Origin: a virus
Direction: 5' to 3' (one strand)
IMG/VR virus record: IMGVR_UViG_3300037587_000590
Location: 1-40,238 of that record
Length of the DNA: 40,238 bases
Position 1 is the stretch's first letter, and every line of letters begins with the position of its first letter. Below are positions 522 through 30,469 of this stretch, piece by piece. The notes below the pieces were generated by a model. The model worked only from the letters and a program-made list of their open reading frames with translations, was not told the DNA's origin and searched no databases. The translations under genes and the position numbers were made by a program.

Positions 522-743
522 CTACCCCTTTGAATTCTTGCGCATAGTAACAACACTTGTTTCCGAGTGTCCAGCCCTAGCCTCATCTACCAATTTTGCT
601 GCATGTTTGAGTATAAACAGGATGCTTATTAATAAAAACCCTATCACCCACCCCCACCAAGGAATGTAAGGGAACATCAGGCCACACAATTCAGCCTTAC
701 GGTCTGCCGCCATTGTTACTCCGTCAGTTGCAATTACCGTCAT
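522..743 (-). CDS. Chimeric small membrane protein with peptidase-derived N-terminus
   Basis: 73 residues. Residues 1-17 (MTVIATDGVTMAADRKA) are identical to the start of the HslV-like peptidase at 19796, because 69 bp at 693-761 are a perfect inverted copy of 19778-19846 including the ribosome binding site. From residue 18 on the protein is unrelated to the peptidase. A Trp/Gly-rich segment followed by one strong membrane helix (about residues 28-48, containing WVIGFLLISILFILKH) and a charged tail suggests a small inner-membrane protein. Its ATG overlaps the stop of the HNH-like gene upstream. The original start may have been the internal Met at residue 23, but the borrowed ribosome binding site makes the 743 start the likely one. 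Function unknown. Confidence 0.6.
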   Translation of the reverse strand: MTVIATDGVTMAADRKAELCGLMFPYIPWWGWVIGFLLISILFILKHAAKLVDEARAGHSETSVVTMRKNSKG

Positions 744-2923: not shown

Positions 2924-3466
2924 TTAACAAAAGTATTTCTTAAATAGTTTAATTTGCTCTTCTGTCTCACTAGCAACATGAACAGCACGGGTAGCATGAG
3001 CATTAGAAGCAGCACGAGCTGACCAAGTAGCAGCATCAGCAGCACGGGTAACATAAGAAGCAGACCAAGTAGCAGCACGAGCAGCAGCACGAGCCGCCCG
3101 AGTAACATAAGAAGCACTATAAGCAGCCTCGCTTGCAGCCTTACAAGCATCCTCATCTATTTTACCATTAGCAAAGTCTCTTGCGGCTTGGATAGCCTTA
3201 CGTGGTCTATCATCATCAGGACGTTTTTCTTCAAAGATATGAAGTACTCTTTCCGCAATATCAGCGGCAAACAGCCTGACCTTATTTTCATCCTTATGTG
3301 TTTTTAACGTCCATAGAGCATCTTCAAAACCATTAATTTCTAGAATATGCTTGTAAGATAAACGAACATTATCAGCTTTAGTTTTACCTAAAGAGCTGAG
3401 TAATTTAGTCCAGCCATCTTCGCAAGGCGAAAGTTTTCTGATTTTATTTAATGTTGTATAGTCCAT
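2924..3466 (-). CDS. Ala-rich repeat protein, putative-immunity-like family, copy 1
   Basis: 180 residues. Residues 1-109 form a conserved head (MDYTTLNKIRKLSPCEDGW, then a KTKADN motif, ILEINGFEDALW and RLFAADIAERVLHIFEE). This is the pattern seen in phage proteins often annotated as putative immunity proteins. A tail of degenerate Ala-rich repeats with Tyr, Trp, Arg and Ser at intervals follows, ending ETEEQIKLFKKYFC. The paralogue at 16839-17450 is nearly identical over the head and the last 17 residues, but its Ala-rich middle differs in sequence and is 23 residues longer. The fold is probably all-helical. The target is unknown. Confidence 0.7.
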   Translation of the reverse strand: MDYTTLNKIRKLSPCEDGWTKLLSSLGKTKADNVRLSYKHILEINGFEDALWTLKTHKDENKVRLFAADIAERVLHIFEEKRPDDDRPRKAIQAARDFANGKIDEDACKAASEAAYSASYVTRAARAAARAATWSASYVTRAADAATWSARAASNAHATRAVHVASETEEQIKLFKKYFC

Positions 3467-6069: not shown

Positions 6070-6507
6070 TTATCTTCTCTGCATATCCTCAGGATAAGTC
6101 AAAGCAATTCCACATTCAATATTGAAAAACCTACTAACCCTATCCATAAATTCAATCATTTCTTTTTTATTAAGCTTGGTTAGGGATTTTCTCTCATCAG
6201 CAGTTGAGCCGTTCATTAAACTATGTTGGATAGACGGTAAAAACTTTTCTTTCATTTCAAACGCCAGGTCATTTTTTTCATAACCAGTCTGGTTCGCCGC
6301 TTCTGTCATCCATTTAAAAAACAATCTGCGTTGCTTATCGGTTATGCTATCCTCTTCTAGTTTTATCTCATATGTTAATGGCTTGGAATAATCAACCTCT
6401 GAAATTCTGCGTAAAGCAAAATCAAGTGATTGTTGGTGTATTATGCGACCTTTAATCATTATTGCTAGTTGAAACCTCTTTTCTTCTTTCCTTTTACTTA
6501 TAAACAT
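6070..6507 (-). CDS. NinB-like recombination protein
   Basis: 145 residues. After a basic N-terminus the pattern KPLTYEIKLEEDSITDKQRR is followed by FFKWMTEAANQTGYEK and a long helical part ending FMDRVSRFFNIECG. It resembles the lambda NinB (Orf) family in order of elements: beta strand with KP, a serine/threonine-Q motif, then helices. NinB binds single-stranded DNA and SSB and helps load the recombinase. Its place at the end of an operon with SSB and a Rad52-type annealase supports this. Similarity is by pattern only. Start ATG 6507 lies behind AAGGAG. Confidence 0.5.
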   Translation of the reverse strand: MFISKRKEEKRFQLAIMIKGRIIHQQSLDFALRRISEVDYSKPLTYEIKLEEDSITDKQRRLFFKWMTEAANQTGYEKNDLAFEMKEKFLPSIQHSLMNGSTADERKSLTKLNKKEMIEFMDRVSRFFNIECGIALTYPEDMQRR

Positions 6508-7093: not shown

Positions 7094-7112
7094 ATTAAAA
7101 TCCCTTAATTGA

Positions 7113-7182
7113 CCTAGCTCCGTTTAAGAAGGGTGGAGTGCAAGGCGGAGCTAGGCCGTTGGGGGAGAAACACCCTTGCACT
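7113..7182 (-). ncRNA. Candidate RNA pseudoknot in the ssb-yopX gap
   Basis: Read on the minus strand, AGTGCAAGG (7182-7174) can pair with CCTTGCACT (7145-7137), and CCTAGCTCCG (7155-7146) can pair with CGGAGCTAGG (7122-7113). Both stems are perfect (9 and 10 bp) and interleaved, with loops of 18, 0 and 14 bases, the geometry of an H-type pseudoknot with stacked stems. A further 7-bp alternative pairs AAGGGTG (7177-7171) with CACCCTT (7135-7129), so a switch is possible. The ribosome binding site of yopX begins just after it. No T-run follows, so it is not an ordinary terminator. Confidence 0.6.
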
Positions 7183-7196
7183 ATCTCTGCTAAACT

Positions 7197-7592
7197 CTAA
7201 AAAGGTATATCATCATCTAAATCGTCGACTGGTGCTTGATAATCTGGCGACCTCTTAGGCTCAGACTGCTCACGACTATCAAGCATGATAATTTTGCCAT
7301 CATAATTTAACACTATTTCAGTTTTATATTTATCAACGCCTTGTTGGTCTTGCCACTTCCTCGTTTGCATTTGACCTGATAGATAAATCTTAGAACCCTT
7401 TTTAATGTAGGACATAACTATTTCACATAGCTTTTCATTGAACACAACTGCGCTTATCCATTCAGTTCGCTCGCCACCTGACCACTTTTCAGATACAGCT
7501 AGGCTAAAACTAACCACTGGCTTACCATTATTCATTGCTCTTTGTTCGGGGTCTTTGCCCACATTTCCTATAAATTCACACCTATTCAGCAT
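7197..7592 (-). CDS. ssb: Single-stranded DNA-binding protein
   Basis: 131 residues, a typical bacterial/phage SSB. The OB fold begins MLNRCEFIGNVGKDPEQR and continues VVSFSLAVSEKW, then TEWISAVVFNEKL and the IYLSGQMQTRKWQDQQG turn. A disordered acidic linker ends in the DDDIPF tip that recruits partner proteins. It coats single-stranded DNA in replication and recombination and lies directly downstream of the Rad52-like annealase gene (12 bases). A 59-bp piece of this gene (7364-7422) is duplicated in front of the annealase gene. Confidence 0.95.
   Translation of the reverse strand: MLNRCEFIGNVGKDPEQRAMNNGKPVVSFSLAVSEKWSGGERTEWISAVVFNEKLCEIVMSYIKKGSKIYLSGQMQTRKWQDQQGVDKYKTEIVLNYDGKIIMLDSREQSEPKRSPDYQAPVDDLDDDIPF
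7364..7422 (-). repeat. 59-bp direct repeat, copy inside ssb
   Basis: Matches 8324-8382 with three mismatches (56 of 59). In ssb it encodes residues around MSYIKKGSKIYLSGQMQ. It is the donor of the fragment fused to the annealase gene. Confidence 0.95.
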
Positions 7593-16810: not shown

Positions 16811-16838
16811 CTCAATCTCCTATTGTACCTTCTATAAA

Positions 16839-17450
16839 TTAACAAAAGTATTTCTTAAATAGTTTAATTTGCTCTTCTGTCTCATCACTAGCATACCTAG
16901 CGGCAGTGGCAATATCAGCGGCATCAGTGGCGGCATCAGTGGCGGCCACAGTAGCAGAATAAGCAGCAGTATAAGTAGCGGCATAAATAGACCAAGCAGC
17001 ATCAGCAGCAGCACGAGCCACATAAGCATTATCACTAGCATAAACCTCACTAGCAGCAACACTAGCGGCATAAGCAGCATCATAAACCTCACGAACAGCT
17101 TCACGAGCCGCCTTACAGGTATCCTTACAAGCATCCTCATCTATCTTACCATTAGCAAAGTCTCTTGCGGCTTGGATAGCCTTACGTGGTCTATCATCAT
17201 CAGGACGTTTTTCTTCAAAGATATGAAGTACTCTTTCCGCAATATCAGCGGCAAACAGCCTGACCTTATTTTCATCCTTATGTGTTTTTAATGTCCATAG
17301 AGCATCCTCAAAACCATTAATTTCTAGAATATGCTTGTAAGATAAACGAACATTATCAGCTTTAGTTTTACCTAAAGAGCTGAGTAATTTAGTCCAGCCA
17401 TCTTCACATGGTGAATGTTTTCTGATTTTATTTAATGTTGTATAGTCCAT
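16839..17450 (-). CDS. Ala-rich repeat protein, putative-immunity-like family, copy 2
   Basis: 203 residues from ATG 17450, the same start context as copy 1 at 3466 (AAGGAATG); a reading from 17561 has no support. The head (residues 1-109) differs from copy 1 by only a few residues (for example RKHSPCEDGW for RKLSPCEDGW), and the last 17 residues are the same. The middle is a different, longer set of Ala-rich repeats (for example AAREAVREVYDAAYAASVAA). The conserved ends and divergent middle suggest recombination or slippage focused on the repeats. Confidence 0.7.
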   Translation of the reverse strand: MDYTTLNKIRKHSPCEDGWTKLLSSLGKTKADNVRLSYKHILEINGFEDALWTLKTHKDENKVRLFAADIAERVLHIFEEKRPDDDRPRKAIQAARDFANGKIDEDACKDTCKAAREAVREVYDAAYAASVAASEVYASDNAYVARAAADAAWSIYAATYTAAYSATVAATDAATDAADIATAARYASDETEEQIKLFKKYFC

Positions 17451-17520
17451 TCCTTTTCCTTTCGGGCGGTTAAGTGGAATATTCTTAGTAGGTATGTGGT
17501 GGTACGTTCTCCACGGCTTT

Positions 17521-17826
17521 TTATTTAGCAATATATGGAGCTTGTAGTATAAAACTGCCATATTGTTTGGATGTATCAGTAGTACAAAAACCTCTTTGCA
17601 TTTTAGTACCGTACACAGTAACTAAAATATCTCCAGCAAGCATATCTAAGCTCTCTGCGTGGGTATCGTATATTACTCCGTCAAAGAAAACGTCTGACCA
17701 ATCATCTACACTTTCGCCCATGAAATACTGGCGTGGGAACTTATGTTTTACTCCATCAACTATTTGTTTGTTGTAGACATCTCCTAAGCCCTTATTAAGT
17801 TTCTCAGCCTCATTCATATTTCTCAT
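17521..17826 (-). CDS. Hypothetical protein
   Basis: 101 residues from ATG 17826 behind GAGGAGA and the leader motif at 17848-17862. Mixed alpha/beta. It has YFMGESVDDWSDVFFDGVIY and MLAGDILVTVYGTKMQRGFC in the centre and C-terminal half. No family is recognised. Part of the second accessory operon. Confidence 0.5.
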   Translation of the reverse strand: MRNMNEAEKLNKGLGDVYNKQIVDGVKHKFPRQYFMGESVDDWSDVFFDGVIYDTHAESLDMLAGDILVTVYGTKMQRGFCTTDTSKQYGSFILQAPYIAK

Positions 17827-17847
17827 GTCTCTCTCCTCTGCCCTAAT

Positions 17848-17862
17848 GGGTGTTAGTGTTAA
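17848..17862 (-). promoter_or_regulatory. Leader motif TTAACACTAACACCC, copy 4
   Basis: Minus-strand copy of the motif found at 2402, 2698 and 3482, here before the gene at 17826 in the second accessory operon. This links the two operons. Confidence 0.6.
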
Positions 17863-17906
17863 TAGTTAGGCTAGAAGGCTGAAACCTAATCCGTCCTCAG
17901 GTCTAA

Positions 17907-18317
17907 TTACTCACTATCATTAAAAAAGGTTTGTTCTAAATGTTCTAATTGTTTATCTGTGTATATAAAATTAGCATCCGCAATAGCTTTTAAATCATTA
18001 ATTGACCCGGCATCATTGAAGAGCTTCCTATAAGTTTTAAGTCCCTCAAATATACGTGAAAGTTTTTTTACATCAGATAAAGTTAGGTTTATTAATGCTC
18101 TTGGTAATTCAAAAAACTCCATAGCCTCATTATTTAATAACTGTGGGTCATTACCAACTAAAAGATAACCATCACTATCATTTGTAGGGTCATAAAGTAC
18201 ATATTTATATTGTGTGTCAGATATTCTAGCCTTTAGACCATCAACCATACAATTTTTATTAAAGTCAGTTCTGCTACTTATAACATAATTATATTTTTCT
18301 ATTTCAAAATTAGTCAT
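17907..18317 (-). CDS. Hypothetical protein
   Basis: 136 residues from ATG 18317. The N-terminal half is beta-rich (EIEKYNYVISSRTDFNKNCM, then YKYVLYDPTNDSDGYLLVGN). The C-terminal half is helical (LTLSDVKKLSRIFEGLKTYR, then DKQLEHLEQTFF). Unrecognised; it follows the lipoprotein gene by nine bases. Confidence 0.5.
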   Translation of the reverse strand: MTNFEIEKYNYVISSRTDFNKNCMVDGLKARISDTQYKYVLYDPTNDSDGYLLVGNDPQLLNNEAMEFFELPRALINLTLSDVKKLSRIFEGLKTYRKLFNDAGSINDLKAIADANFIYTDKQLEHLEQTFFNDSE

Positions 18318-18326
18318 TATTTTATC

Positions 18327-18677
18327 CTATCTATCTTCTTCAACACACTTCATGTCGAAGCCCAACCGCATGTTATTGTTGAACTCATGCCTAGCCTCAC
18401 CTTTATTAAAAGGGTCTACTGCTAAATCAAATCCGTAGTAAACAGGTAGGACAACTGCGACCAAGGGCATAAGAGTTAATGCGCCAAGAGCCAATCCACC
18501 TGCTACACCTAAATTCACGGCGTTGCTTTTGTTCGTACGGCGGTTAAGCTCTGACTTAGCATCATAAGATGCGTTAACTACTTGATTGCATGTTCTATCC
18601 ATATCAGCTTGACTAGGATATAGTGCAGTAGAGGCACATGCTGTTAATAGTAGTGGTGTTAATATTAAATACTTCAT
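18327..18677 (-). CDS. Lipoprotein
   Basis: 116 residues. A short signal peptide (MKYLILTPLLLTACASTALY) carries a lipobox LTAC, with Cys14 as the lipidated residue after cleavage. A hydrophobic segment follows (NLGVAGGLALGALTLMPLVA and VVLPVYYG, about residues 55-82). Phage lipoproteins of this size often act in superinfection exclusion or lysogenic conversion. It is the first gene of the second accessory operon, with GGAGAA upstream. Confidence 0.7.
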   Translation of the reverse strand: MKYLILTPLLLTACASTALYPSQADMDRTCNQVVNASYDAKSELNRRTNKSNAVNLGVAGGLALGALTLMPLVAVVLPVYYGFDLAVDPFNKGEARHEFNNNMRLGFDMKCVEEDR

Positions 18678-18746
18678 AGTAAGTTCTCCTTTTGATGTTT
18701 TCTAATTGTTAATGTAAGGCGTACTTACACTTAATACAAGCTTTAT

Positions 18747-18775
18747 TTGACAAATAGGGTAAGAAAAGATATAAT
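18747..18775 (+). promoter_or_regulatory. Perfect consensus sigma70 promoter, likely late promoter
   Basis: TTGACA (18747-18752), exactly 17 bases, TATAAT (18770-18775). It points to the terminase and virion genes, with the first well-supported start at 19311, so the transcript would have about 530 leader bases. By analogy with lambda pR-prime this could be the late promoter controlled by an antiterminator. Confidence 0.85.
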
Positions 18776-18917
18776 GTATTGAATTTAAACGAAACTTTTC
18801 TAAGCGTTCCAGTTATTATGAAGGCGTCCTAAAGACAATTCAACATGCGATATACACATACCACACATATACCTTTATATAGAGAGCTATTAGAATTAAC
18901 ACAAAGAGATGTTAATA

Positions 18918-18946
18918 ACGCTTTAGAATAGGTTTAGAATAGCGTG
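18918..18946. repeat. Tandem TTTAGAATAG repeat within a short palindrome
   Basis: TTTAGAATAG occurs at 18922-18931 and 18933-18942, an 11-base period (one helical turn). It is framed by ACGCT (left) and AGCGT (right). A pair of sites on one face of the helix suggests binding of a regulator downstream of the late promoter. Confidence 0.5.
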
Positions 18947-19013
18947 AGGGGGTAATCGTGTCGGTTAGGCACTTACATCTCGAAATCACACACGCACATC
19001 AAATGTGGTTAAC

Positions 19014-19124
19014 ATGAGGAAAAGGCCGAGAGCTGCTTTTATAACCTCACTGGCACTATTTAAAGGAGCGAGCATTGCGTTTTTAGCTAAGTCATTGATA
19101 ACAACCAGTTTTGCAACCGCATAA
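19014..19124 (+). CDS. Possible small hydrophobic peptide
   Basis: 36 codons: a basic start (MRKRPRAAF), then a moderately hydrophobic stretch (ITSLALFKGASIAFLAKSLI). No clear ribosome binding site. It could be a small membrane peptide in the late leader or chance. Confidence 0.25.
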   Translation: MRKRPRAAFITSLALFKGASIAFLAKSLITTSFATA

Positions 19125-19164
19125 TTACTATTATGTTAAATTATGACCTGATATAGGGGTAAAT

Positions 19165-19245
19165 ATGTGGCTGAATATTGGGTTGGGCATGGGTGGTGGG
19201 GGCGTGTTCGTATGCGAGGGGTCCCACCCTGAGGCTTATAATTAA
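19165..19245 (+). CDS. Possible 26-residue Gly-rich peptide
   Basis: ATG 19165 follows AGGGG at seven bases. The peptide starts MWLNIGLGMGGGGVFVCEG and ends at TAA 19243-19245, just before the T tracts. The good ribosome binding site is the only support. Confidence 0.25.
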   Translation: MWLNIGLGMGGGGVFVCEGSHPEAYN

Positions 19246-19248
19246 AAC

Positions 19249-19276
19249 TTTTTTAAATTTTTTTTGAATTTTTTTT
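19249..19276. other. Phased T tracts, predicted intrinsically bent DNA
   Basis: Three runs of 6, 8 and 8 T (19249-19254, 19258-19265, 19269-19276) have centres 10-11 bases apart, in phase with the helix. Such DNA is curved. It lies 35 bases before the terminase small subunit gene, where packaging sites are often found, and could also help a promoter or act as weak terminator. Confidence 0.55.
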
Positions 19277-19310
19277 AGAAAAGGGTTATGGTTAGATAAA
19301 GGAATTAGAT

Positions 19311-19685
19311 ATGTCAGAGGATGATTTAGATGTAAGTGTCGCAGCATTGCGTGGGGAGGGTGCGTTGGTAGAGGCTCCTCTGGTTGGTTATGATGCTCAG
19401 AAGAAGATGACGACCGAGAGTTTATTGTCTGATATAGAGAAGCGTTTGAGTTTGGCGTTACATTTTTTAGATGAGGCGACTTTGCGTGATGCGAGTGTTA
19501 AGCAGTTATCTGATTTAGTTAAGGTTATGTTTGACAGGCGTCAGTTATTGATGGGTGAGCCGACGCAGATTGTTTCTAATGATGATAGGCGTACGATTAA
19601 TAAGTTGTTGCCTATTATTTTGGAGCAGGCTAGGATGCGAGGGATATCGGTTCCTGTGATTGAGGGTGAGATAATTGATGGGTAG
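19311..19685 (+). CDS. Terminase small subunit-like protein
   Basis: 124 residues from ATG 19311 behind AAAGGA. Helical, with LSDIEKRLSLALHFLDEATL, then SVKQLSDLVKVMFDRRQLLM, and a C-terminal NKLLPIILEQARMRG. The size, the helical make-up and the place as first gene of the packaging cluster fit a small terminase subunit, which recognises the phage DNA end. No classical HTH is obvious, so the call rests partly on position. Confidence 0.55.
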   Translation: MSEDDLDVSVAALRGEGALVEAPLVGYDAQKKMTTESLLSDIEKRLSLALHFLDEATLRDASVKQLSDLVKVMFDRRQLLMGEPTQIVSNDDRRTINKLLPIILEQARMRGISVPVIEGEIIDG

Positions 19686-19777
19686 GATTAAACGTCGATG
19701 TGGCATAACCCAAAGACGGATAAGGGCGGCAGTATGTAGAGTATTATATAATAAAAACAATAGTAAATCAGCGAAAT

Positions 19778-19846
19778 TAAAAAGAGGTATTTAATATGAC
19801 GGTAATTGCAACTGACGGAGTAACAATGGCGGCAGACCGTAAGGCT
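19778..19846 (+). repeat. 69-bp perfect inverted repeat, right copy
   Basis: Reverse complement of 693-761 with no mismatch. Contains the ribosome binding site, ATG and first 17 codons of the HslV-like gene, so it is the likely donor copy. Confidence 0.95.
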
Positions 19847-20236
19847 CGGATGTTTGGACAGTCGTTTCCTGTTTGTAAGGTTTTTATAGTTGGTGAATAT
19901 ATTGTAGGAATCGCTGGCGACGTAGATTATGGACAAAGATTAATTGAGTGGTTTAAATTATATGTAAAAAAAGAGGCAACTTTAGATGACAGGCCTGACG
20001 AAAAAGATGTAGGATATGATTTTATGACAATTTCAAAAAAGCATGGCATACAACATCTTTTAAAGCATGATTTTGTAAAAATTAACTTACCTTTTTTCAT
20101 AGGTGGTTCAGGAGGTGATTTCGCTTTATCTGCTATGACATTGGGTAAATCACCAAGAGAGGCTGTAGAATTGGCAATTAAACTTGATAGAAATTGCGGA
20201 CTTGGCGTTGATGTGTTGAGTTTAAACGATGTCTGA
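19796..20236 (+). CDS. HslV/proteasome-like Ntn-hydrolase
   Basis: 146 residues. After Met removal Thr2 would be the N-terminal nucleophile. The start TVIATDGVTMAADRKA matches the first two strands of proteasome beta and HslV subunits, with Asp14 in the conserved AADRK and Lys28 near the place of the catalytic lysine. Later it has YIVGIAGDVDYGQRL, FIGGSGGDFALSAMTLGKSP (the GSGG turn) and REAVELAIKLDRNCG. It is shorter than HslV, which is about 175 residues, and no ATPase partner gene is nearby. It sits between TerS-like and TerL genes and overlaps TerL by eight bases, so a role in head maturation is possible. Confidence 0.75.
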   Translation: MTVIATDGVTMAADRKARMFGQSFPVCKVFIVGEYIVGIAGDVDYGQRLIEWFKLYVKKEATLDDRPDEKDVGYDFMTISKKHGIQHLLKHDFVKINLPFFIGGSGGDFALSAMTLGKSPREAVELAIKLDRNCGLGVDVLSLNDV

Positions 20237-21878
20237 TTTATCTGATTTAACAGGCGAGGCCATAGGAAAGCTCGGAGATTTTGAGTTTGAGGCCTTGTTA
20301 AATCAGGTAGTGGGTCTAGCTGAGGATGATCGCAAGGTAAATCAAATCCAGTATTATAAACCTATTACTGAGCGTCACATGAGAATGCACTCGTCGGATT
20401 GTCATATTATCGGAGCGGGGGGCGGAAATGGCAGTGGTAAGTCTGAAGCTTGCCTTGTGGAGCTTGTAATGTGTGCTACTGGAGTGTTTCCTGATAGCTG
20501 TAAGCACTTATCAGAAAAAAAGTTCCGTGGGCCGATAAACACCCGTATTGTGGTGGAATCGCTAACAACCGTAATGCACCCTATTATGCTTCCTAAGCTA
20601 AAATGGAACCAATGGACGGGTATGGCTCCTATCGGCGGTTCTCAGGGTCATTGGGGGTGGGTTCCAAGGGATTGCTTGATTGATGGCGATTGGAAAAAGT
20701 CTTGGTCTGAGAAGTTGCGTACCTTAACGGTGCTGTGTCGTGACCCTAACGACAGGGAAAAGGTTCTAGGACATTCAAAAATCCAATTTATGTCTCACGA
20801 CAATGATCCCGAAGACTTTGCATCTGGAGATTATCATATTGTAATGCTAGATGAACCGCCTACATACCCTATTTTTACCGAAAATCAAGCCCGTACCATG
20901 CGTGTTAATGGCAAAATCATTTTAGCAATGACGTGGCCTGACGATCCCGCTATTCCTGTTGATTGGATTTATGATGAAATATACGACAAGGCTGCGAGTG
21001 ACCCTGATATAGACTGGTTTGAGCTTTACACTACCGATAACCCCCATCTAGACCAAGATGCCATTGCTAAACAAATGGATAAATGGGATGAAGAAATGAA
21101 ACGAGTGCGTATTTTAGGGCAACCAATACGCTTTTCTAATTTAATTCATCCAGGATTTACCGACCATGAAGAGGTTTGGTCGTTTAAAGCAGGCAAAAAC
21201 GTACTTCCTATGGAGGGATGGATTTGTCCGATAACGGGTTCTGATGATTTAGAAACATATTGCCATGTGCAAGAATTTGATATTAGCCCCTCTTGGCCTG
21301 TAGTGTGGTTATTAGACCCCCATCCTCGTAAACCCCATATGTTTATGTGGGTGGCAATAGACCCTAATGATGATTGTTGGGTGGTGGCTGATGGTGAGTT
21401 TGAAGGACAAACCGAGAATATGAGGGAATATATTAATGAAATTGAGCGTCAATATGGAATACACGCATCTCTAAGATTGGTTGACCCCAATATGGGACGC
21501 TCACCCGCAGGACAAACACGGGGCGATACATGGCAAGAAGAATTTGCTAGATGTGGAATTTATGTAGAACTTGCAGATGATAGCTCAGTGGGACGCTCAT
21601 GGGTAAATGGTATGTTAAAGCCCGACCCACATTTAAGAAAACCACGGCTTCATATTCATAAACGTTGCGAAAATACAATTTATCAGTTAAAAAGATATTC
21701 ATGGGGCGAATATAAAAAAAATCAGGAACGTGACGTAAAACAAACCCCAAGAGAAAAATTTGATGATTACCCTACCATGCTTAAATATTTGGGTAATTAT
21801 AGACCAGACTTTAATATGTTGAAAAACGGCGCACCTATTATTGGTGCAGGAAGAAGGTCAGGGGCTTATGGCTCATAA
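20229..21878 (+). CDS. terL: Terminase large subunit
   Basis: 549 residues. The packaging ATPase has a Walker A-like loop GAGGGNGSGKS at residues 62-72 and Walker B HIVMLDEP at 203-210. A C-terminal nuclease half carries acidic residues in WVAIDPNDDCWVVADGEFEG and LRLVDPNMGRSPAG, consistent with an RNase H-like fold. It pumps DNA into the prohead and cuts concatemers. It starts at ATG 20229 inside the end of the peptidase gene. Confidence 0.93.
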   Translation: MSDLSDLTGEAIGKLGDFEFEALLNQVVGLAEDDRKVNQIQYYKPITERHMRMHSSDCHIIGAGGGNGSGKSEACLVELVMCATGVFPDSCKHLSEKKFRGPINTRIVVESLTTVMHPIMLPKLKWNQWTGMAPIGGSQGHWGWVPRDCLIDGDWKKSWSEKLRTLTVLCRDPNDREKVLGHSKIQFMSHDNDPEDFASGDYHIVMLDEPPTYPIFTENQARTMRVNGKIILAMTWPDDPAIPVDWIYDEIYDKAASDPDIDWFELYTTDNPHLDQDAIAKQMDKWDEEMKRVRILGQPIRFSNLIHPGFTDHEEVWSFKAGKNVLPMEGWICPITGSDDLETYCHVQEFDISPSWPVVWLLDPHPRKPHMFMWVAIDPNDDCWVVADGEFEGQTENMREYINEIERQYGIHASLRLVDPNMGRSPAGQTRGDTWQEEFARCGIYVELADDSSVGRSWVNGMLKPDPHLRKPRLHIHKRCENTIYQLKRYSWGEYKKNQERDVKQTPREKFDDYPTMLKYLGNYRPDFNMLKNGAPIIGAGRRSGAYGS

Positions 21879-22107
21879 ATATATTTGTGATGGTTGTGGC
21901 AAACAAGAGGATACAATGTCCAGTCTAGAGCCTGTAGGACATGTAGTTCCTGCTATTTATTGCCCCGACTGTCTAACCAAAGTTCAAGAATATATGAACG
22001 AACTTGATGTATTGCATTCCCAACTAGCCTTAGGTTTTAGTAAAAAACTTGTTGCACTGAGAAAAAAACACACTAAAAATAACTTCACATTGCCAGATAA
22101 AATATGA
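21868..22107 (+). CDS. Small zinc-finger protein
   Basis: 79 residues from ATG 21868 behind CAGGGG, overlapping the end of TerL by 11 bases; a TTG start at 21841 is less likely. Two CxxC pairs (YICDGCGKQED and YCPDCLTK, about 20 residues apart) form a zinc ribbon, followed by a helix (VQEYMNELDVLHSQLALGFS). Unknown role in the packaging or head cluster. Confidence 0.6.
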   Translation: MAHKYICDGCGKQEDTMSSLEPVGHVVPAIYCPDCLTKVQEYMNELDVLHSQLALGFSKKLVALRKKHTKNNFTLPDKI

Positions 22108-22535
22108 ACGCAAGCGTAAATATGACAGGCTGTTGCGCCCTTTCGGGCAAAGAGGTCTATGAGATTAATGCATCATTTCCAAATAGTCATCCGTTTGAGG
22201 GCAGACCTATGAAAATAGGAAGTCCACTAAAAGAGTGCTATGATGTTTATTTACTGCTGTTAGATGGAAAAATTACCCGCTTAAGCATACACGAAGAAAT
22301 GTTGAGTAAGGTAAATGAAAACATCGGAGTGATTTGGAATAATGTCTTAGCGGCGTTTAAGGACGAGGAGCTGATTGCACAAACTGCGGTGGTGACTAAT
22401 CCTAAGTCAGACGAGCAGTTGGAAATACATCGAAAAAATGTTATAGACTTTGCTAAGAACAAACCGTTGGGAATTTTAGCTATAGAAAGGACTTTAGACC
22501 GTGGCGAAAGAGAAAAAGCAAAAAGAAGTCATTAA
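22104..22535 (+). CDS. Hypothetical protein overlapping the portal gene
   Basis: 143 residues, ATG 22104 overlapping the previous stop and the 3' end overlapping the portal gene by 35 bases. It begins with a Cys pair (MTGCCALSGKEVYEINASFP) and has a helical middle (LSIHEEMLSKVNENIGVIWN). The basic end is TLDRGEREKAKRSH. No family is recognised. Confidence 0.5.
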   Translation: MNASVNMTGCCALSGKEVYEINASFPNSHPFEGRPMKIGSPLKECYDVYLLLLDGKITRLSIHEEMLSKVNENIGVIWNNVLAAFKDEELIAQTAVVTNPKSDEQLEIHRKNVIDFAKNKPLGILAIERTLDRGEREKAKRSH

Positions 22536-24876
22536 TGGAGTGCGCATTAGACGCTCCCGTAAAGATTCCTTTAAGTTCAAAGCTGGTGATATTTATAACC
22601 GTGTGAAAACATTTGCGGATAAATGGGAAAATGATCGCTCTACAGCTAGATTTGAATTAATGCAACGCCACGCTAAGTTTAGACAGTGGACGGAAGGAAA
22701 AAATTGGCCTTGGGCTGATAGCTCCGATATTAAACTCCCAGATATGACGGGTCAATCACTTAGGGTACAAGATACCCTTCATATTGCCGTAATGTCCGCA
22801 CGCCCCCCTGTTACCGCTAGAGCAACCGATAAGGTTTCTAGTGAACGTGCGGAAAAAGTAGACCAAGTTATAGACCATCAATTGTTTGTTGATATGAATG
22901 GTGAAAATTTTATTTCTGAATTAACGGAAACTTTTACTAATGATGGGCATTTTGTTGCCTTCATCCCGTGGGTAAAAGAACGCGCACAAGTAAGTGACGC
23001 GCTAATGTTTCCTCAAATACCCGAAGATGTTAGCCCAGAAGAATATTTTAAAGCCATAATTTCTAAAAATTATCCAACGGCTGTGGAAACAGTGTCTAAG
23101 GGAAAAGAGTTTTGGGATTGGTCAATAACCAACGAAGACACCTCAAAAATGGATGTGTCCTTTTATACCGACGATAATGGTGTGGAAATGGTGACAACAA
23201 AGTTTGCCAATGTTTTTGATGGGCCTGCACCAATGGTTAAGGATTGGGAGTCGGTTTTATTTCCCGTGCGAGCGGCTAATTTACAACCACCGTCACCTTC
23301 TAACCCAAGAGGTGCGCAAGCCGTTATTTTAGTAGATTATCCAACAGTTGATGAAGTTGTACGATTACAGAAAAAGGGTTGGTATGATGGTCTTACAGAC
23401 GAAGACGTTAAGGGACTAACAGCCGTTGCACCTAGCTCAGACCACGATGACACCGATAGAGCCAAAGACACCTTTGATGGGGTGAGTGGAACTGAAACAA
23501 ACCCACAAACAGGGGCAGAAAGCCATAAACAATTAACTCGATACACATGTTTTGACCGCTTTGATATAAATGGCGATGGGCTAGATGAAGATGTTATTTG
23601 GTGGGTTATAAGGGAATTGTCAGGAAAAGTGGCTAAAGCCGTACTAATGACAGAAATGTACCCCTTTCCTAAACCACGCAGACCACTAGCCACAGCAAGT
23701 TTTATTCCCATTAAAGGTCGTGTAGGGGGCATAAGTCAACTAGAACTAACCGAAGGCACACACGATGCCATGAAAATCACCTATGACCAGATGATTGATT
23801 CTACAACTATAACCAATTCCCCATTTTTCTTCTATCGGGCGGCGGGTGGTATGCGTCCTGAAGTTATCCGTTTAGCCCCAGGTGAGGGCTATCCCTTGAT
23901 GGACCCATCAAGGGATGTTCATTTTCCTCAAATGAATAATCAAGCAGGTGTTATGGGCGCAAATACAATCGGATTGTTAAATAATATGCAAGAGCGTCTA
24001 ACGTTAGTGGGCGACCAACAACTTGGCAGGGTTCCCCCCGGCGGTGCTACAGCCCTTAGAACTGTTACAGGCATGGCAATGATGCAAAACAACGCTGAGG
24101 CACGTCCCGAACGCATTTTAAGACGGTTTTATATGGGGTTAAGAGATATTTACTCTATGATACACGAATTAAATCAAATATTTCTTCCTAAAGATAAAAA
24201 AATATTAATAGCCAAAAGTCGCTCAAAAGAGGACGAGCCATATTCTAAGATTGAATCGGTTCAAGAGATAAGGGGTAGTTTTTCTTTCGACTTTGATGCA
24301 AATGCGTTTAATACCTCACGTCAGGCACTTGAGCAGGCCATGACCGTAATGATGGATAGATATATTTCAGATATTAATCTTCAGTTGGGAATTATTGACC
24401 AAGAGGGTATTTATCGCTTGCAACGGGATTGGGGTAAAGTCATGGGGCAAGATCCTGACCAATATCTCAGCCCACCTAGTCCAGATGCAACAATGCGTAA
24501 ATTATTTGTCGAAGATGTGCTGTTATTAGTTGCGCAGGGTCAAAAACCATATGGCGTACCCGCTGAAGGTGCTGCGGCGCATTTGCAAAAATTACAAGAA
24601 TTTATACAAAGCGATGATTTTGGGCATCTCCCTCCGCAACATGTAGCTGAATTGCTAAAACCTTATATGGAACAAGTGGCACAACGGGCGCAACAAGAGC
24701 AAGTGCAGGCGCAACAACAAGCGGCGGCAGGACAGAATAATGCCTCACCTGCGGCGCAATCGCCTGGCGCACCACAAGAAAACCCAATGGCTATGCCAAC
24801 AAATGTTCAAGATGGGCAATTAGTAGACCAAACCTTGCCTGGACTTAATGGAAATGGATCGGGGAACCCACAATGA
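22501..24876 (+). CDS. Portal protein
   Basis: 791 residues from GTG 22501. The N-terminal part (YNRVKTFADKWENDRSTARF, then KNWPWADSSDIKLPDMTGQS and LRVQDTLHIAVMSARPPVTA) is typical of long podovirus-type portals. The middle has VILVDYPTVDEVVRL and GDGLDEDVIWWVI. The later part has ALRTVTGMAMMQNNAEARPE and IRGSFSFDFDANAFNTSRQA. The C-terminus is a Gln/Ala-rich barrel-like helix (QQEQVQAQQQAAAGQ). It forms the ring through which DNA enters, and the length fits P22/T7-like portals. Confidence 0.88.
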   Translation: MAKEKKQKEVINGVRIRRSRKDSFKFKAGDIYNRVKTFADKWENDRSTARFELMQRHAKFRQWTEGKNWPWADSSDIKLPDMTGQSLRVQDTLHIAVMSARPPVTARATDKVSSERAEKVDQVIDHQLFVDMNGENFISELTETFTNDGHFVAFIPWVKERAQVSDALMFPQIPEDVSPEEYFKAIISKNYPTAVETVSKGKEFWDWSITNEDTSKMDVSFYTDDNGVEMVTTKFANVFDGPAPMVKDWESVLFPVRAANLQPPSPSNPRGAQAVILVDYPTVDEVVRLQKKGWYDGLTDEDVKGLTAVAPSSDHDDTDRAKDTFDGVSGTETNPQTGAESHKQLTRYTCFDRFDINGDGLDEDVIWWVIRELSGKVAKAVLMTEMYPFPKPRRPLATASFIPIKGRVGGISQLELTEGTHDAMKITYDQMIDSTTITNSPFFFYRAAGGMRPEVIRLAPGEGYPLMDPSRDVHFPQMNNQAGVMGANTIGLLNNMQERLTLVGDQQLGRVPPGGATALRTVTGMAMMQNNAEARPERILRRFYMGLRDIYSMIHELNQIFLPKDKKILIAKSRSKEDEPYSKIESVQEIRGSFSFDFDANAFNTSRQALEQAMTVMMDRYISDINLQLGIIDQEGIYRLQRDWGKVMGQDPDQYLSPPSPDATMRKLFVEDVLLLVAQGQKPYGVPAEGAAAHLQKLQEFIQSDDFGHLPPQHVAELLKPYMEQVAQRAQQEQVQAQQQAAAGQNNASPAAQSPGAPQENPMAMPTNVQDGQLVDQTLPGLNGNGSGNPQ

Positions 24877-25253
24877 CCATAGATAAAAAGGATTGGCTTG
24901 CATCGCTTCCTGAAAAAAAAGTATCTCCTGAACAGGTAACTGCGGCGAAAACCATTTCACGTCAAGCGGTTAATATGAAGCACCTTACTAACGACCCCAA
25001 TTGGGATATGTTTTTAAGTTTTATTCAGTCTACATTAGATGAGGCCGAGGTTATGATGGCCTACTATACTGAGGCACTACAAAGCGTTAAAACCAAGGAC
25101 GAAGATATGGCTCAGCTTAAAAGGGGGTATTTAGTATCAAATGAAAGATATAATATTTTAACAAATTTAATTGAGTTACCAAAGGCTATTATTGAAGACG
25201 GTGAGACGGCAAAAGATTTATTAGCAAGGTTAGAAGATGGAAGCAAAGATTAA
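24873..25253 (+). CDS. Helical hypothetical head protein
   Basis: 126 residues, ATG 24873 overlapping the portal stop. Helical throughout (EQVTAAKTISRQAVNMKHLT, then SFIQSTLDEAEVMMAYYTEA and YNILTNLIELPKAIIED). Between portal and scaffold; possibly a minor head or chaperone protein. Confidence 0.5.
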   Translation: MTIDKKDWLASLPEKKVSPEQVTAAKTISRQAVNMKHLTNDPNWDMFLSFIQSTLDEAEVMMAYYTEALQSVKTKDEDMAQLKRGYLVSNERYNILTNLIELPKAIIEDGETAKDLLARLEDGSKD

Positions 25254-25401
25254 AGCCGTGGTTGCAAATTGCTTACCTACTGAGATAGTGGAAGCACTTA
25301 TGTTAGCCGCTAAAGTACGAATGACAGGCCATATTACTGTGCATTTTAAAGATGGATTGCCAAGAGTAATTAAAACCGAGAAAGAGACAAGAATTTTTTA
25401 G
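25237..25401 (+). CDS. Small hypothetical protein
   Basis: 54 residues from ATG 25237, overlapping the previous gene by 17 bases. It shows a helix (CLPTEIVEALMLAAKVRMTG) then a strand pair (HITVHFKDGLPRVIKTEKET). Ends at TAG, about 55 bases before a strong terminator. Unknown function. Confidence 0.5.
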   Translation: MEAKIKAVVANCLPTEIVEALMLAAKVRMTGHITVHFKDGLPRVIKTEKETRIF

Positions 25402-25457
25402 GTACTTGCGTTTTGTAAATTTTATAGTATAGTCACGAAAGGGAAACCTAATAACTG

Positions 25458-25490
25458 GCCCCAGAGCTTTCGAGCTTTGGGGCTTTTTTT
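25458..25490 (+). terminator. Strong Rho-independent terminator between portal and scaffold genes
   Basis: GCCCCAGAGCT (25458-25468), a TTCG loop and AGCTTTGGGGC (25473-25483) give an 11-bp stem with one G-U pair. Seven T follow. It would end the packaging transcript, so the scaffold and capsid genes either use antitermination or a promoter in the 25402-25552 gap. Confidence 0.9.
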
Positions 25491-25552
25491 ATTGGTGTAA
25501 TGATCCTCACCAGATCGGGTTCTTGGCCCCTTAGCCATGATTGGAGTATCCA

Positions 25553-26311
25553 ATGACAGACGTAAAATCACAGGAATCTACCGCTTCAGGCGATTCCGAG
25601 AACGCTTCGTCAGGCGATAAAATGATACCTTTTGATCGTTTTAAAAAAGTAAATGATGAGAAAAATTCCTTGCAGGAACAAGTATCAGAACTTTTACAGG
25701 GTAAGAATACATTAGGAGTTGCCTCGAAAGCCAAAGCTGAAGAGGTCGAAAAACCCCAACCTGTTTTTACTCGACAGGAGCTTAATAAATTTTTGGATGA
25801 TGGTAAAATAAGTCAAGAGCAAATGGATAACATTCTCGACAACCAGAATCAAACAAAGATAGATCAGGGCGTAAAAAACGCCGTGGGCAAACAAGCTCAA
25901 GATGAACTAACGAGTACAGGACTAACTCGCTATATGACCGCAAGGCCAGAAGCGATAGTTGAAGGAACAGACGATAGACGCAGAGTAACAGCACAATTCA
26001 ATAAATTAATTGAAGAAGGACAGCCAAATAATAAGGCTACCGAGTTACTAGCGTTGAAAATTGCTTTTGGGCCAATTGAAGCTTTAGAGGCTGCTAGTGT
26101 GGGTTCCCATGATAGGATGACCCATCAAGACGCGGGTGGTGAAGGTGGCGACGATAATGTCACCGATAGTTCACCCAAAGACTTAACATCACGGCAGCGC
26201 AGATTTTATCAATCTAAAATAGATCAGGGAATTTATTCTGATTGGGATGCGGTAAAATCTGAACTGAAGTATCAAGATAAAAACTTAAGCAAGCGTGCGG
26301 CAAATGGCTAA
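25553..26311 (+). CDS. Head scaffolding protein
   Basis: 252 residues from ATG 25553 behind TTGGAG. Acidic and helical, with a Ser/Asp-rich start, MIPFDRFKKVNDEKNSLQEQ (a common scaffold opening), a coiled-coil part, a Gln-rich middle (SQEQMDNILDNQNQTKIDQG) and a basic end (YQDKNLSKRAANG) that may bind capsid subunits. Position two genes before the capsid gene supports it. Confidence 0.75.
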   Translation: MTDVKSQESTASGDSENASSGDKMIPFDRFKKVNDEKNSLQEQVSELLQGKNTLGVASKAKAEEVEKPQPVFTRQELNKFLDDGKISQEQMDNILDNQNQTKIDQGVKNAVGKQAQDELTSTGLTRYMTARPEAIVEGTDDRRRVTAQFNKLIEEGQPNNKATELLALKIAFGPIEALEAASVGSHDRMTHQDAGGEGGDDNVTDSSPKDLTSRQRRFYQSKIDQGIYSDWDAVKSELKYQDKNLSKRAANG

Positions 26312-26588
26312 TATAATCCGTAACCCCAAGTATTGGGAAACAGATGAAGGCAAAATGGTCGCCATGCAGAATAACGGCAGGAGAGCTATTACTACTGCCG
26401 CGAGTTGGGTCACTGATTTGGCTGAACTTAAAAAATGCATTTGTCTGTGCCATCTATGTACTCCAAAGTTCAACCCGAAGGCATATCGTTATGAGCGGCA
26501 AACTAGGCCACCATTAAGAAATGTCGTAGGGGAATGTGATGGGTGTAAAGCAACGAATGAACAATGCGCTGTCTTTATGCCTGAATGA
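26304..26588 (+). CDS. Small Cys-rich zinc-binding protein
   Basis: 94 residues from ATG 26304, overlapping the scaffold stop. Cys-rich centre CICLCHLCTPKFNPKAYRYE and a later GECDGCKATNEQCAVF suggest one or two zinc sites. The N-terminal part is helical (YWETDEGKMVAMQNNGRRAI). Unusual inside a capsid operon; function unknown. Confidence 0.55.
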   Translation: MANIIRNPKYWETDEGKMVAMQNNGRRAITTAASWVTDLAELKKCICLCHLCTPKFNPKAYRYERQTRPPLRNVVGECDGCKATNEQCAVFMPE

Positions 26589-26609
26589 AACTTTAATTGG
26601 AGACTAATC

Positions 26610-27329
26610 ATGGAATGCACCCAAATACTAAACGGTGGCAGTACACGGATTATCAAGTATCCCATTGCGGCGACAACTATTGCCAACATAATGCTGTTAA
26701 AACCAGCGGCAGGCGGTAATGGTTTAGCACAGTCCACAGCAACTAGTTGTGCTGATGCTGTGGGGTTATCACTTGATTCGGGTACTTATGGCACTGCACA
26801 AAACGCCGATGGCTCAAACCCTGAATCTCAGGTTAGTGTTATCGTAAACCCTGATGCGGTATATCGTATTAAATTGTCAGGCGGTAGCTCAAACGGCACT
26901 GCTCTTTCAAAACAAACAGTCACTACAGCTTCAACAACAGGCTTAGCCGTAACTACAGCGGCTGCATGGTCTTCACCAACCTTCGATGAGGGAACTGTGT
27001 GGGGTTATTCAGGAGCTAATGTTGGCCCTGAAGCAATACGAAAGATTACAAGCGTTAGTTCAACTGCGGGTACAGTAAGCGTTGCTTTTGCAAATGATAT
27101 TGCCGTTGGCGATGAATTTTTGAGAGCACCTTTTGCTTTATTTACCGTTAGCCTCACCCTGACAAGTACTCTCGATCAGGTTGATTGCTCTGTGGCATTA
27201 TCAGCTTCAGCGGCTGAACTAATTCCTATTAACAACTTGGGTCTACTTAGAGATGTGGGTTCCGACGGTACAACCAATAGCTTTATTGACTGTATTGCAG
27301 GTGACCATATGTTTAGTGGTCGCCCGTAA
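26610..27329 (+). CDS. Probable head decoration protein
   Basis: 239 residues, rich in Gly, Ser, Thr and Ala, with a repeating strand pattern (VYRIKLSGGSSNGTALSKQT, then GTVSVAFANDIAVGDEFLRA and LFTVSLTLTSTLDQVDCSVA). Such a beta-rich protein directly before the major capsid gene is commonly a head decoration or cement protein. No diagnostic motif. Confidence 0.5.
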   Translation: MECTQILNGGSTRIIKYPIAATTIANIMLLKPAAGGNGLAQSTATSCADAVGLSLDSGTYGTAQNADGSNPESQVSVIVNPDAVYRIKLSGGSSNGTALSKQTVTTASTTGLAVTTAAAWSSPTFDEGTVWGYSGANVGPEAIRKITSVSSTAGTVSVAFANDIAVGDEFLRAPFALFTVSLTLTSTLDQVDCSVALSASAAELIPINNLGLLRDVGSDGTTNSFIDCIAGDHMFSGRP

Positions 27330-27353
27330 TGATGGATGAAAAGGAGATAACCA

Positions 27354-28274
27354 ATGTCTAATCCAGCAACATCGGGTCAATTTGCCGACTTATTAGACCC
27401 ACGTTTTCAAAAAATCTTTGATGACAAATACAAACAACTACCTGATATGCTTCCTGAAATTTATTCTTTCCCTGCTACTAATGGACGGGATAATATGACA
27501 TGGAGTGAAGTTGGCGCTTTCGCTGATTTCTCACAGTTCTCAGGTTCTATCAGCTACGATTCACCAGTACAAGGCTTTGACACGACATCAACACCGCTTG
27601 AGTTTGTTAATGGCTTTAAGGTGGAGCGTAAACTCTTTGATGATGACCAATATCATATTATGGATGGTCGTCCGTCAGGCTTGTCTACTGCGGCACATCG
27701 TACACGTCAAAAACATGGCGCTCGTATATTTAACAATGCTTTTTCAGTTGATAGTTATTTTTCTAATCAATCTGAAGGCGTTGCTTTGTGTTCAAATAGT
27801 CATACTACCAATGCAGGGGGCGTTGATACCTCATCAGGTTTTGACAACCTAGCCTCTTCATCACTTACAGCTACCGCAGTAGCGGCTAATCGCATTCAAA
27901 TGCGTGGCTTCCGTGATGATCGTGGTGGTCGCATGTCTGTAATGCCAGATACAATTATTCACCCGCCAGAGCTTTATGAAGTGGCGTATGAGATTGTTTC
28001 TAGCATGGGTAAGGTAGATACTGCCAACAACAACAAAAACGTCCACGAGGGCGCTTATAAGTTGATTGATTGGGAATACCTAACCGATACAAACAACTGG
28101 TTTATGATGGACAGTTCCGCTCAATCTGAAATGCTTATGTGGATTGACCGCACACCGCTTGAGTTTGCCTATCAGGAAGAGTTTGATACCCTTGTAGCCA
28201 AGTGGCGTGCTTACATGCGCTATTCAAATGCTTGGGTAGACTGGAGATTCATTCTCGGAAATCAAGTTAGTTAA
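27354..28274 (+). CDS. Major capsid protein (Mu gpT-like)
   Basis: 306 residues from ATG 27354 behind AAGGAG. It has the features of the Mu gpT-like HK97-fold group: VNGFKVERKLFDDDQYHIMD (the conserved FE-R-DD-y motif), then AAHRTRQKHGARIFNNAFSV and a later PDTIIHPPELYEVAYEI. The C-terminal strand region is FDTLVAKWRAYMRYSNAWVD. It builds the icosahedral shell. Scaffold upstream and a hairpin downstream delimit a capsid expression unit. Confidence 0.88.
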   Translation: MSNPATSGQFADLLDPRFQKIFDDKYKQLPDMLPEIYSFPATNGRDNMTWSEVGAFADFSQFSGSISYDSPVQGFDTTSTPLEFVNGFKVERKLFDDDQYHIMDGRPSGLSTAAHRTRQKHGARIFNNAFSVDSYFSNQSEGVALCSNSHTTNAGGVDTSSGFDNLASSSLTATAVAANRIQMRGFRDDRGGRMSVMPDTIIHPPELYEVAYEIVSSMGKVDTANNNKNVHEGAYKLIDWEYLTDTNNWFMMDSSAQSEMLMWIDRTPLEFAYQEEFDTLVAKWRAYMRYSNAWVDWRFILGNQVS

Positions 28275-28281
28275 TAGTGGC

Positions 28282-28306
28282 GGGGGGCTAAACGCCCCCC
28301 CCGTTT
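28282..28306 (+). terminator. GC-rich hairpin after the capsid gene
   Basis: GGGGGGC (28282-28288), loop TAAAC and GCCCCCC (28294-28300), followed by CCGTTT. The stem is strong but the T-run is short, so it may be a partial terminator or an mRNA 3'-end stabiliser that raises capsid messenger level. Confidence 0.55.
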
Positions 28307-28324
28307 ACCTAACGAAAGGAGCGT

Positions 28325-28528
28325 ATGATGGCAAAGAAAGATAGTCCCTACGACAAAGTAACGGTTCAACGCCTTGTAACTTTAAAGGTTGTTAGAAAAC
28401 ACGCTGATACAGTGGCAAGTCTATTAGAGGCAAATGTTTATAATTTACATAACCAAATTGCTGATATTGACATAGATATAGACGACCTCATTGCGGCGAA
28501 GAAGGCCAAGAGGGGGAAGGCTTCATGA
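28325..28528 (+). CDS. Small hypothetical protein
   Basis: 67 residues, with two adjacent Met codons behind AAAGGAG (the second, at 28328, has the better spacing). Helical (DKVTVQRLVTLKVVRKHADT) with an Ile/Asp repeat (IADIDIDIDDLIAAKK) and a basic end. Unrecognised; after the capsid gene. Confidence 0.5.
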   Translation: MMAKKDSPYDKVTVQRLVTLKVVRKHADTVASLLEANVYNLHNQIADIDIDIDDLIAAKKAKRGKAS

Positions 28529-28668
28529 CCAATCCTAACTATACAGACATTGATGTGCGGAAAGTTTTGGCAGGCGGTACTATGAAGCCTCCCGTTTTAA
28601 AGCAGCCCGCAAAACAACCAAAATTCAAAGCGCCTGTGGTTCCTAATATCACAAGCGTTAAACTCTAA
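28525..28668 (+). CDS. Small Pro/Lys-rich hypothetical protein
   Basis: 47 residues, ATGA overlap with the gene before. The C-terminal half is proline- and lysine-rich (MKPPVLKQPAKQPKFKAPVV), probably unfolded. Ends 15 bases before the beta-helix gene. Confidence 0.45.
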   Translation: MTNPNYTDIDVRKVLAGGTMKPPVLKQPAKQPKFKAPVVPNITSVKL

Positions 28669-28683
28669 TAGGAGGCATATAAT

Positions 28684-29613
28684 ATGTCATTTTTAACCAA
28701 ATACGGCGTGTTGGCATCAGTTATGCCCTCACTTATGGGTCGCATTCACTGGGTAGCTCCTGGCGCAGGCGGCTATTCATTAAATGGACAAACATTTACA
28801 GCGGCAGATGGTAATGACGGTCAAAGCCCCGAAGTTGCTTTGGCAACAATTGACCAAGCCATTAGCAATGCTACGGCAAGTGCAGGAGAGGTAATTATTT
28901 GTTTGCCAGGAACACATACACCAACAGCATCTTTAGCTATGTCAAAGGCAGGCGTAAAACTATTGTCCCTTGATGCAGTTCTTGGCGGCAATCCATTACG
29001 TCAATCAACTACTATAGGTGCGGTAACGGGCGACCAGAGTATTAACGTAACAGCCGCTGATATTGAAATTGCTGGATTTAACTGTATACCAGTAACGGCA
29101 GATTCATTTTTGGATTTCTCAGCTGCTGCAGATGGGCTTCATGTTCATCACTGTAAATTTGATATGGTCACGCCTGTCGTTAATATTGGGACTAAGGGTG
29201 TTGAAGCTCTTGGTGCGGCAAGTAATGTTTATCTTCATAATAACACATATGAGGTAGATGGCGCACAGGGCGAAGCTATTAATATGACAGCTTGTGTTGA
29301 CAGCCTTGTGGAAGATGAATTAATCAACCTTTCCACAGGCACATGGGCGGCTGCTATTGTTACAGGCGCAGCGACTGACCGTCTTACTATTAGTCGCCTG
29401 CGGTGTCTAACTAGTGCTGGCACAATTACCATTGGTGTCAATGGTACAGCAGCCACAATTGCGGGCGGTGTTCAAGTTGTGGATAGCCGTTTCTCAGATA
29501 GTGTGACTGTGGCTATTGATGGCTTTGGAGCTGGAGAATGTGAAATTGCCGAAAACTATCAACTTGGCGTTGGTGGAACTGATGGTGGCGTATTAATCGT
29601 TGCTATAACTTAA
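28684..29613 (+). CDS. Right-handed beta-helix virion protein
   Basis: 309 residues from ATG 28684 behind GGAGG. The chain is rich in Gly, Ala, Thr and Val, with repeating short turns (AADIEIAGFNCIPVTADSFL, then AADGLHVHHCKFDMVTPVVN and ASNVYLHNNTYEVDGAQGEA). This is the pattern of a pectate-lyase-like parallel beta-helix. In phage such proteins are tail spikes or head fibres. Its place right after the capsid genes favours a capsid fibre or decoration protein. Confidence 0.6.
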   Translation: MSFLTKYGVLASVMPSLMGRIHWVAPGAGGYSLNGQTFTAADGNDGQSPEVALATIDQAISNATASAGEVIICLPGTHTPTASLAMSKAGVKLLSLDAVLGGNPLRQSTTIGAVTGDQSINVTAADIEIAGFNCIPVTADSFLDFSAAADGLHVHHCKFDMVTPVVNIGTKGVEALGAASNVYLHNNTYEVDGAQGEAINMTACVDSLVEDELINLSTGTWAAAIVTGAATDRLTISRLRCLTSAGTITIGVNGTAATIAGGVQVVDSRFSDSVTVAIDGFGAGECEIAENYQLGVGGTDGGVLIVAIT

Positions 29614-29626
29614 CAGGAGAACTTTA

Positions 29627-30460: not shown

Positions 30461-30469
30461 GAGAATAGA

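Follow-up and report, generated by a model that had tools for sequence, protein, structure and literature searches.

The locus examined here raises two questions: does the short gap between ssb and yopX in a viral recombination operon encode a structured RNA, and what would such an RNA do? The window, that is, the whole stretch of 40,238 nucleotides analyzed from IMG/VR virus record IMGVR_UViG_3300037587_000590, carries the following genes, all on the minus strand: a Rad52-family recombinase gene (PF04098; 7605..8375), at which the conserved operon context starts; ssb (PF00436; 7197..7592); the element; yopX (PF09643; 6755..7093); a small winged-helix-like gene, whose match falls just under the Pfam cut-off; and ninB, for a NinB/Orf-like recombination mediator (PHROG 72; 6070..6507), a downstream context common to the related loci L110 and L209. 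A sequence-only reading had proposed a likely new RNA pseudoknot in the gap. What stood of that proposal is a structured, covarying element that is absent from Rfam, lies just upstream of a ribosome binding site (RBS) and is no terminator; a link to SSB was not supported, and a switch specific to yopX is unlikely.

The gap is 103 nt long on the minus strand, to which all element coordinates refer, and GC content over 7100-7199 is 0.51, versus roughly 0.31-0.46 nearby. Stem A consists of nine perfect pairs between A1 (AGTGCAAGG, 7174-7182) and A2 (CCTTGCACT, 7137-7145), and stem B has a perfect 10-bp core formed by B1 (CCTAGCTCCG, 7146-7155) and B2 (CGGAGCTAGG, 7113-7122). The order A1-B1-A2-B2 makes the stems interleaved. 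These two perfect stems and the direct adjacency of B1 and A2, both described earlier from the sequence, were confirmed, and as RNA stem B is even longer, at 12 bp (7146-7157 with 7111-7122), since one G-U and one G-C pair extend the core. Read as RNA, the parts are A1 (AGUGCAAGG, 7174..7182), which in L110 is paired via different letters; a C-rich loop 1 of 16 nt (GUGUUUCUCCCCCAAC, 7158..7173), its L110 counterpart being likewise C-rich (AGAACCCCUCCC); the 5' strand of stem B (GGCCUAGCUCCG, 7146..7157); A2 (CCUUGCACU, 7137..7145), which adjoins B1 and leaves a loop 2 of 0 nt; loop 3 of 14 nt (CCACCCUUCUUAAA, 7123..7136), with a CCCUUC(U/A)U motif (CCCUUC at 7128-7133) common to all four family members; and the 3' strand of stem B (CGGAGCUAGGUC, 7111..7122). 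The 7-bp alternative for A1 that had been noticed before is also present in the gap (AAGGGTG/CACCCTT; in RNA, AAGGGUG at 7171-7177 and the 3' half, CACCCUU, at 7129..7135). The Shine-Dalgarno-like AAGGGA of yopX follows at 7101..7106 and has possible pairing partners in both long loops, either CCCUU of loop 3 or CCC of loop 1.

Pseudoknots were scored with our own simple stacking and loop-penalty scheme rather than a published pseudoknot program, and the energies are approximate. On this scale the element scored -32.3, versus a shuffled mean near -6, and was the best-scoring pseudoknot of the whole window. None of 2,000 dinucleotide shuffles of the gap reached this score, nor did any of 1,500 in a second run. 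It was likewise reached in none of 120 simulated 40-kb windows (second-order Markov), the best of which gave -26.0. Because perfect 9/9-bp interleaved stems alone are still expected by simulation at about 0.1 per window (both strands summed), the full score is the stronger argument. The nested fold of the gap is only mildly unusual (z about -1.8); the improbable part is the interleaving, not the nested fold.

A second complete pseudoknot was found in L110 (IMG/VR), whose rad52 is the closest relative of the window's, with 64% identity over the matched stretch. There, CCAAGCGGU/GCCGCUUGG is interleaved with GCCUCACUGCU/GGCAGUGAGGC in a gap flanked by the gene that follows rad52 and an HNH-like gene preceding ninB, directly before an RBS and at the operon position corresponding to that of the window element. 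The score of the L110 gap was reached by none of 1,500 shuffles. All 20 comparable base pairs are kept between the window and L110, and 12 of them have changed on both sides (eight of nine pairs in stem A and four of 11 in stem B). This pair count, obtained with loops trimmed by hand, was matched by none of 500 shuffled controls and is destroyed by sliding the partners; six unchanged pairs fix the register of stem B. Both stems thus covary against L110, as had been expected of related phages if the gap held a structured RNA, and we regard the structure in the ssb-yopX gap as very probably real. The L110 structure was also among the best in an H-type pseudoknot scan of 1.8 Mb of fetched loci that was blind to position, a rank that proves little because raw energies are dominated by GC-rich loci. 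When a second scan was restricted largely to non-coding positions, both the L110 structure and that of the window ranked with the most extreme by shuffle z-score, alongside unrelated structures in L011, L074, and L076. Pseudoknot matches in L074 and L180 were read as terminators (T run or long perfect hairpin). In L076, a 123-aa phage gene has, shortly before its start, a strong pseudoknot-like leader of 13+8 bp (676-742, minus strand) that is unrelated in sequence. Strong AT-rich interleaved hairpins lie directly before an RBS and ATG in L011 (694-757); instead of an RNA, they may represent an operator palindrome with a promoter.

Two further relatives, L209 and L211, were reached via NinB and a leader gene of L110, and both have a gap at the corresponding operon place. 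Each has stem B as a hairpin of 10 bp that closes a loop of about 15-20 nt; stem A is missing, and an outer pairing between CCAAG and the Shine-Dalgarno side stands in its place. The loss of one stem from homologous gaps, which the sequence-only reading had named as evidence against a pseudoknot, is therefore seen in L209 and L211, which have stem B only, and not in L110, which has both stems. Between L209 and L211, stem B differs at three pairs, one being C-G against G-C, one U-G against G-U, and the third altered on one side only; all are still paired, in a comparison of two rows for which the shuffle control has little power (115/500). A pseudoknot in L209 via CCAAG:CUUGG in the loop was dropped because it leaves no loop 3 that could bridge the stem.

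In all four elements, CCCUUC(U/A)U stands at most a few bases 5' of B2, and the spacing between the end of B2 and the Shine-Dalgarno sequence varies from a few to roughly a dozen bases. When every fetched locus, more than 2.1 Mb in total, was searched for a hairpin with CCCTTC[AT] and an RBS, the four elements scored between -26 and -20 and the next candidate about -13. Judged from sequence comparison, the element belongs to a small family of phage RNAs, so far unlisted, that lie near the RBS of the next gene; the four members of this family are all from uncultured phages, with L110, L209, and L211 being close kin in this region. The best reading is an unlisted cis-acting RNA made of a conserved hairpin and pyrimidine loop, with a pseudoknot elaboration in two phages.

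Database searches gave no further members. NinB, leader-gene, and recombinase-tail searches returned only L110, L209, and L211, and a leader-gene search of bacterial genomes returned no relative. Rfam 15 gave no match of the element at the gathering threshold, and scores were at chance level. No blastn match of the element was found among 50,697 phage and 72,556 plasmid records; the L110, L209, and L211 elements gave only short chance matches against phages, and a structure-aware exact pattern had no match in GTDB genomes. The exact 17-mer of the B1-A2 junction had seven matches in IMG/VR, which we attribute to chance because none has the partner strands. The SSB relatives L088, L091, L092, and L094 have no comparable gap directly downstream of ssb, and terminase relatives matched neither the element nor SSB. 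Another record, L095 (IMG/VR), is 99.99% identical to window positions 17293-31875 and represents the same phage assembled twice; it does not cover the element.

The genes flanking the element change from phage to phage. Upstream is ssb in the window and L209 and a small Cys-rich gene in L110 and L211; downstream is yopX in the window, an HNH-type gene with a sub-threshold DUF968 match in L209, and in L110 and L211 a gene called HNH-like from a reading of its sequence, with no Pfam match. Neither the L110 nor the L211 record, both possibly incomplete, yielded an SSB gene. yopX lies elsewhere in the L110 record, not after the element, and was not found in the L209 and L211 records. Since the flanking genes and the presence of ssb and yopX vary, the element is tied to operon position and not to a particular neighbor. 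Control specific to yopX, one of the earlier proposals, is unlikely given that none of the three relatives has yopX downstream of the element. The site is a mosaic junction of the recombination module. A C-terminal tail of about 90 aa is conserved on the recombinases of L110 (5454-5723), L209 (3902-4171), and L211 (7407-7676), with 67-70% identity to the L211 copy, and the N-terminal parts differ, being Rad52-like in L110 and of other kinds in L209 and L211; by sequence, this shared tail is that of a mosaic recombination module.

As to function, the element probably modulates translation of the following cistron, a model in which our confidence is middling; the structure is a much firmer claim. 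The gap would act in cis as an RNA element of the leftward recombination mRNA, with the GC-rich hairpin (stem B) presenting a loop that carries the conserved pyrimidine motif CCCUUC(U/A)U. A further pairing of the 5' half of this loop with upstream sequence (stem A) would give an H-type pseudoknot in the window and L110. With a few to about a dozen nucleotides between B2 and the next cistron's Shine-Dalgarno region, the element could set translation initiation of whatever gene follows. It might do so by presenting or occluding the RBS, through the competing pairings that each member has, or by binding a protein that recognizes the pyrimidine loop, for example, a phage protein. The exposed pyrimidine-rich loop suggests protein binding, and ribosomal protein S1 is a candidate binder.

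Predicted folds bear on the first of these routes. The Shine-Dalgarno GG is mostly paired in the predicted nested ensemble of all four members. This is modest evidence only, because 29% of Shine-Dalgarno-preceded open reading frames in these phages are likewise occluded (below 0.10). The occluding partners differ between members. When the pseudoknot stems are occupied, the Shine-Dalgarno sequence is predicted to be freed in L110 and not in the window, so no single switch model fits both. Given this split and how common occlusion is, we do not commit to a switch direction or ligand. A universal pairing between the loop and the Shine-Dalgarno sequence was also considered; it is plausible in the window, L209, and L211, and L110 offers at most about 3 bp by eye, so it is not a family rule. 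A bolder version of the translational model, which we put forward tentatively, is a family of RNA switches in phages, not described before, that follows operon position and not a gene, in which the CCCUUC-loop hairpin would toggle between RBS occlusion and exposure, the pseudoknot stem would be a later elaboration in some phages, and a phage or host protein would read the structure. A second phage family, unrelated in sequence, with strong two-sided covariation, a fixed place in the recombination operon, and changing neighbor genes would offer a new test case for RNA control tied to operon position, and because related phages with and without the pseudoknot stem are at hand, the step from hairpin to pseudoknot is open to direct study.

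The strongest competitor, although we think it rather unlikely, is a role in mRNA processing or stability, in which the stable fold would separate the decay of upstream and downstream operon mRNA as a ribonuclease barrier or landing site and would not control translation directly. A very stable intercistronic fold that keeps its operon position while the flanking genes vary, with no terminator, would suit such a role, which nevertheless does not account for the stronger conservation of the pyrimidine loop motif compared with the stems or for the constant nearness of B2 to the RBS.

A structure acting in DNA, as a module-boundary sequence or as a single-strand structure for recombination or replication, is improbable. 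The element does sit at a mosaic junction of a recombination module, and a single-strand DNA function has also been discussed for STAXI (PMC2864571). G-U pairs, however, occur in the coding-strand RNA reading of all four members and become A-C mismatches on the other strand, and the opposite strand scores poorly as a pseudoknot in L209 and L211. Both observations make an RNA within the operon transcript more likely than a DNA structure or antisense RNA. The STAXI pseudoknots themselves are found close to genes encoding SSB and further DNA-handling proteins (PMC2864571). STAXI (RF01728) consists of two to three tandem pseudoknots, often with UUCG loops, and is listed for Enterobacteriales, whereas the pseudoknot here is single and lacks UUCG. 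The unit was found once in the window, with no tandem repeat, the RF01728 covariance model had no match at E<=10 in the window, L110, L209, or L211, and no Rfam hit in the window reached the gathering level; copy number and model search together exclude STAXI.

An RNA that acts on transcription in the early operon, by antitermination or pausing, appears quite improbable. It would account for a constant place in the early leftward operon whatever the flanking genes, but the element lies mid-operon, not at the promoter-proximal end, and no terminator-like site is nearby in the window. B2 is followed by AATTAAGGGATTTTAAT, and no terminator-like site, with a GC-rich hairpin and then a T run, was found on the minus strand at the element, which bears out the earlier remark that it is not a plain terminator.

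We give equally little credence to an SSB-controlled operator as in phage T4 gene 32, in which SSB would bind the pseudoknot and repress the downstream cistron or operon. By analogy, the element would work most like the T4 gene 32 leader pseudoknot, but it fails the defining location of that family. T4 gp32 recognizes its leader pseudoknot, then UUAAA repeats and the RBS (PMC535899, PMC3014915), and the gene 32 leaders of T4, T2, and RB69 share with the element an H-type pseudoknot in phage mRNA, coaxial stems, a position upstream of an RBS, and a replication/recombination context (PMC535899, PMC3014915). The H-type pseudoknot is present here by computation, ssb is directly upstream in the window and L209, and the window has UUAA at two places on the way from B2 to the start of yopX. 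The T4 operator, however, spans about 28 nt and precedes the ssb gene itself; the element here is larger (9+12 bp in 72 nt) and lies outside the leader of ssb, 3' of that gene and 5' of another, yopX. The proposed tie to SSB level is not supported, since two of the three related records have the element with no SSB detected, and L209 is the only one with ssb upstream. With flanking genes that differ and two records without a detectable ssb, a switch like that of T4 gene 32 is unlikely. The E. coli rpsO (ribosomal protein S15) leader also has a pseudoknot in a translational operator at the RBS (cited in PMC3014915); it serves autogenous ribosomal-protein control in bacteria, the neighbors of the element do not include rpsO, and the likeness is one of general mode only.

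Interleaved pairing by chance and without function is hardly credible: pseudoknots are easily found across a long sequence in single genomes, and weaker 7/7-bp interleaved cases do occur at the expected rate, but the shuffles, the simulated windows, and the four-member motif search are all contrary, and the covariation in L110 already contradicts it.

Elsewhere in the window, two paralogous Imm5-like genes 14 kb apart contain direct copies of 300 nt (3122-3421 and 17106-17405, 97% identity) and of 49 nt (2921-2969 and 16836-16884, 100%), and the Ala-rich repetitive parts between the conserved stretches differ. A 93-nt inverted repeat (669-761 and 19778-19870, 89%), its halves 19 kb apart, makes the start of the open reading frame at 522-743 a copy of the start of that at 19796-20236, a pattern resembling the duplication of a gene start.
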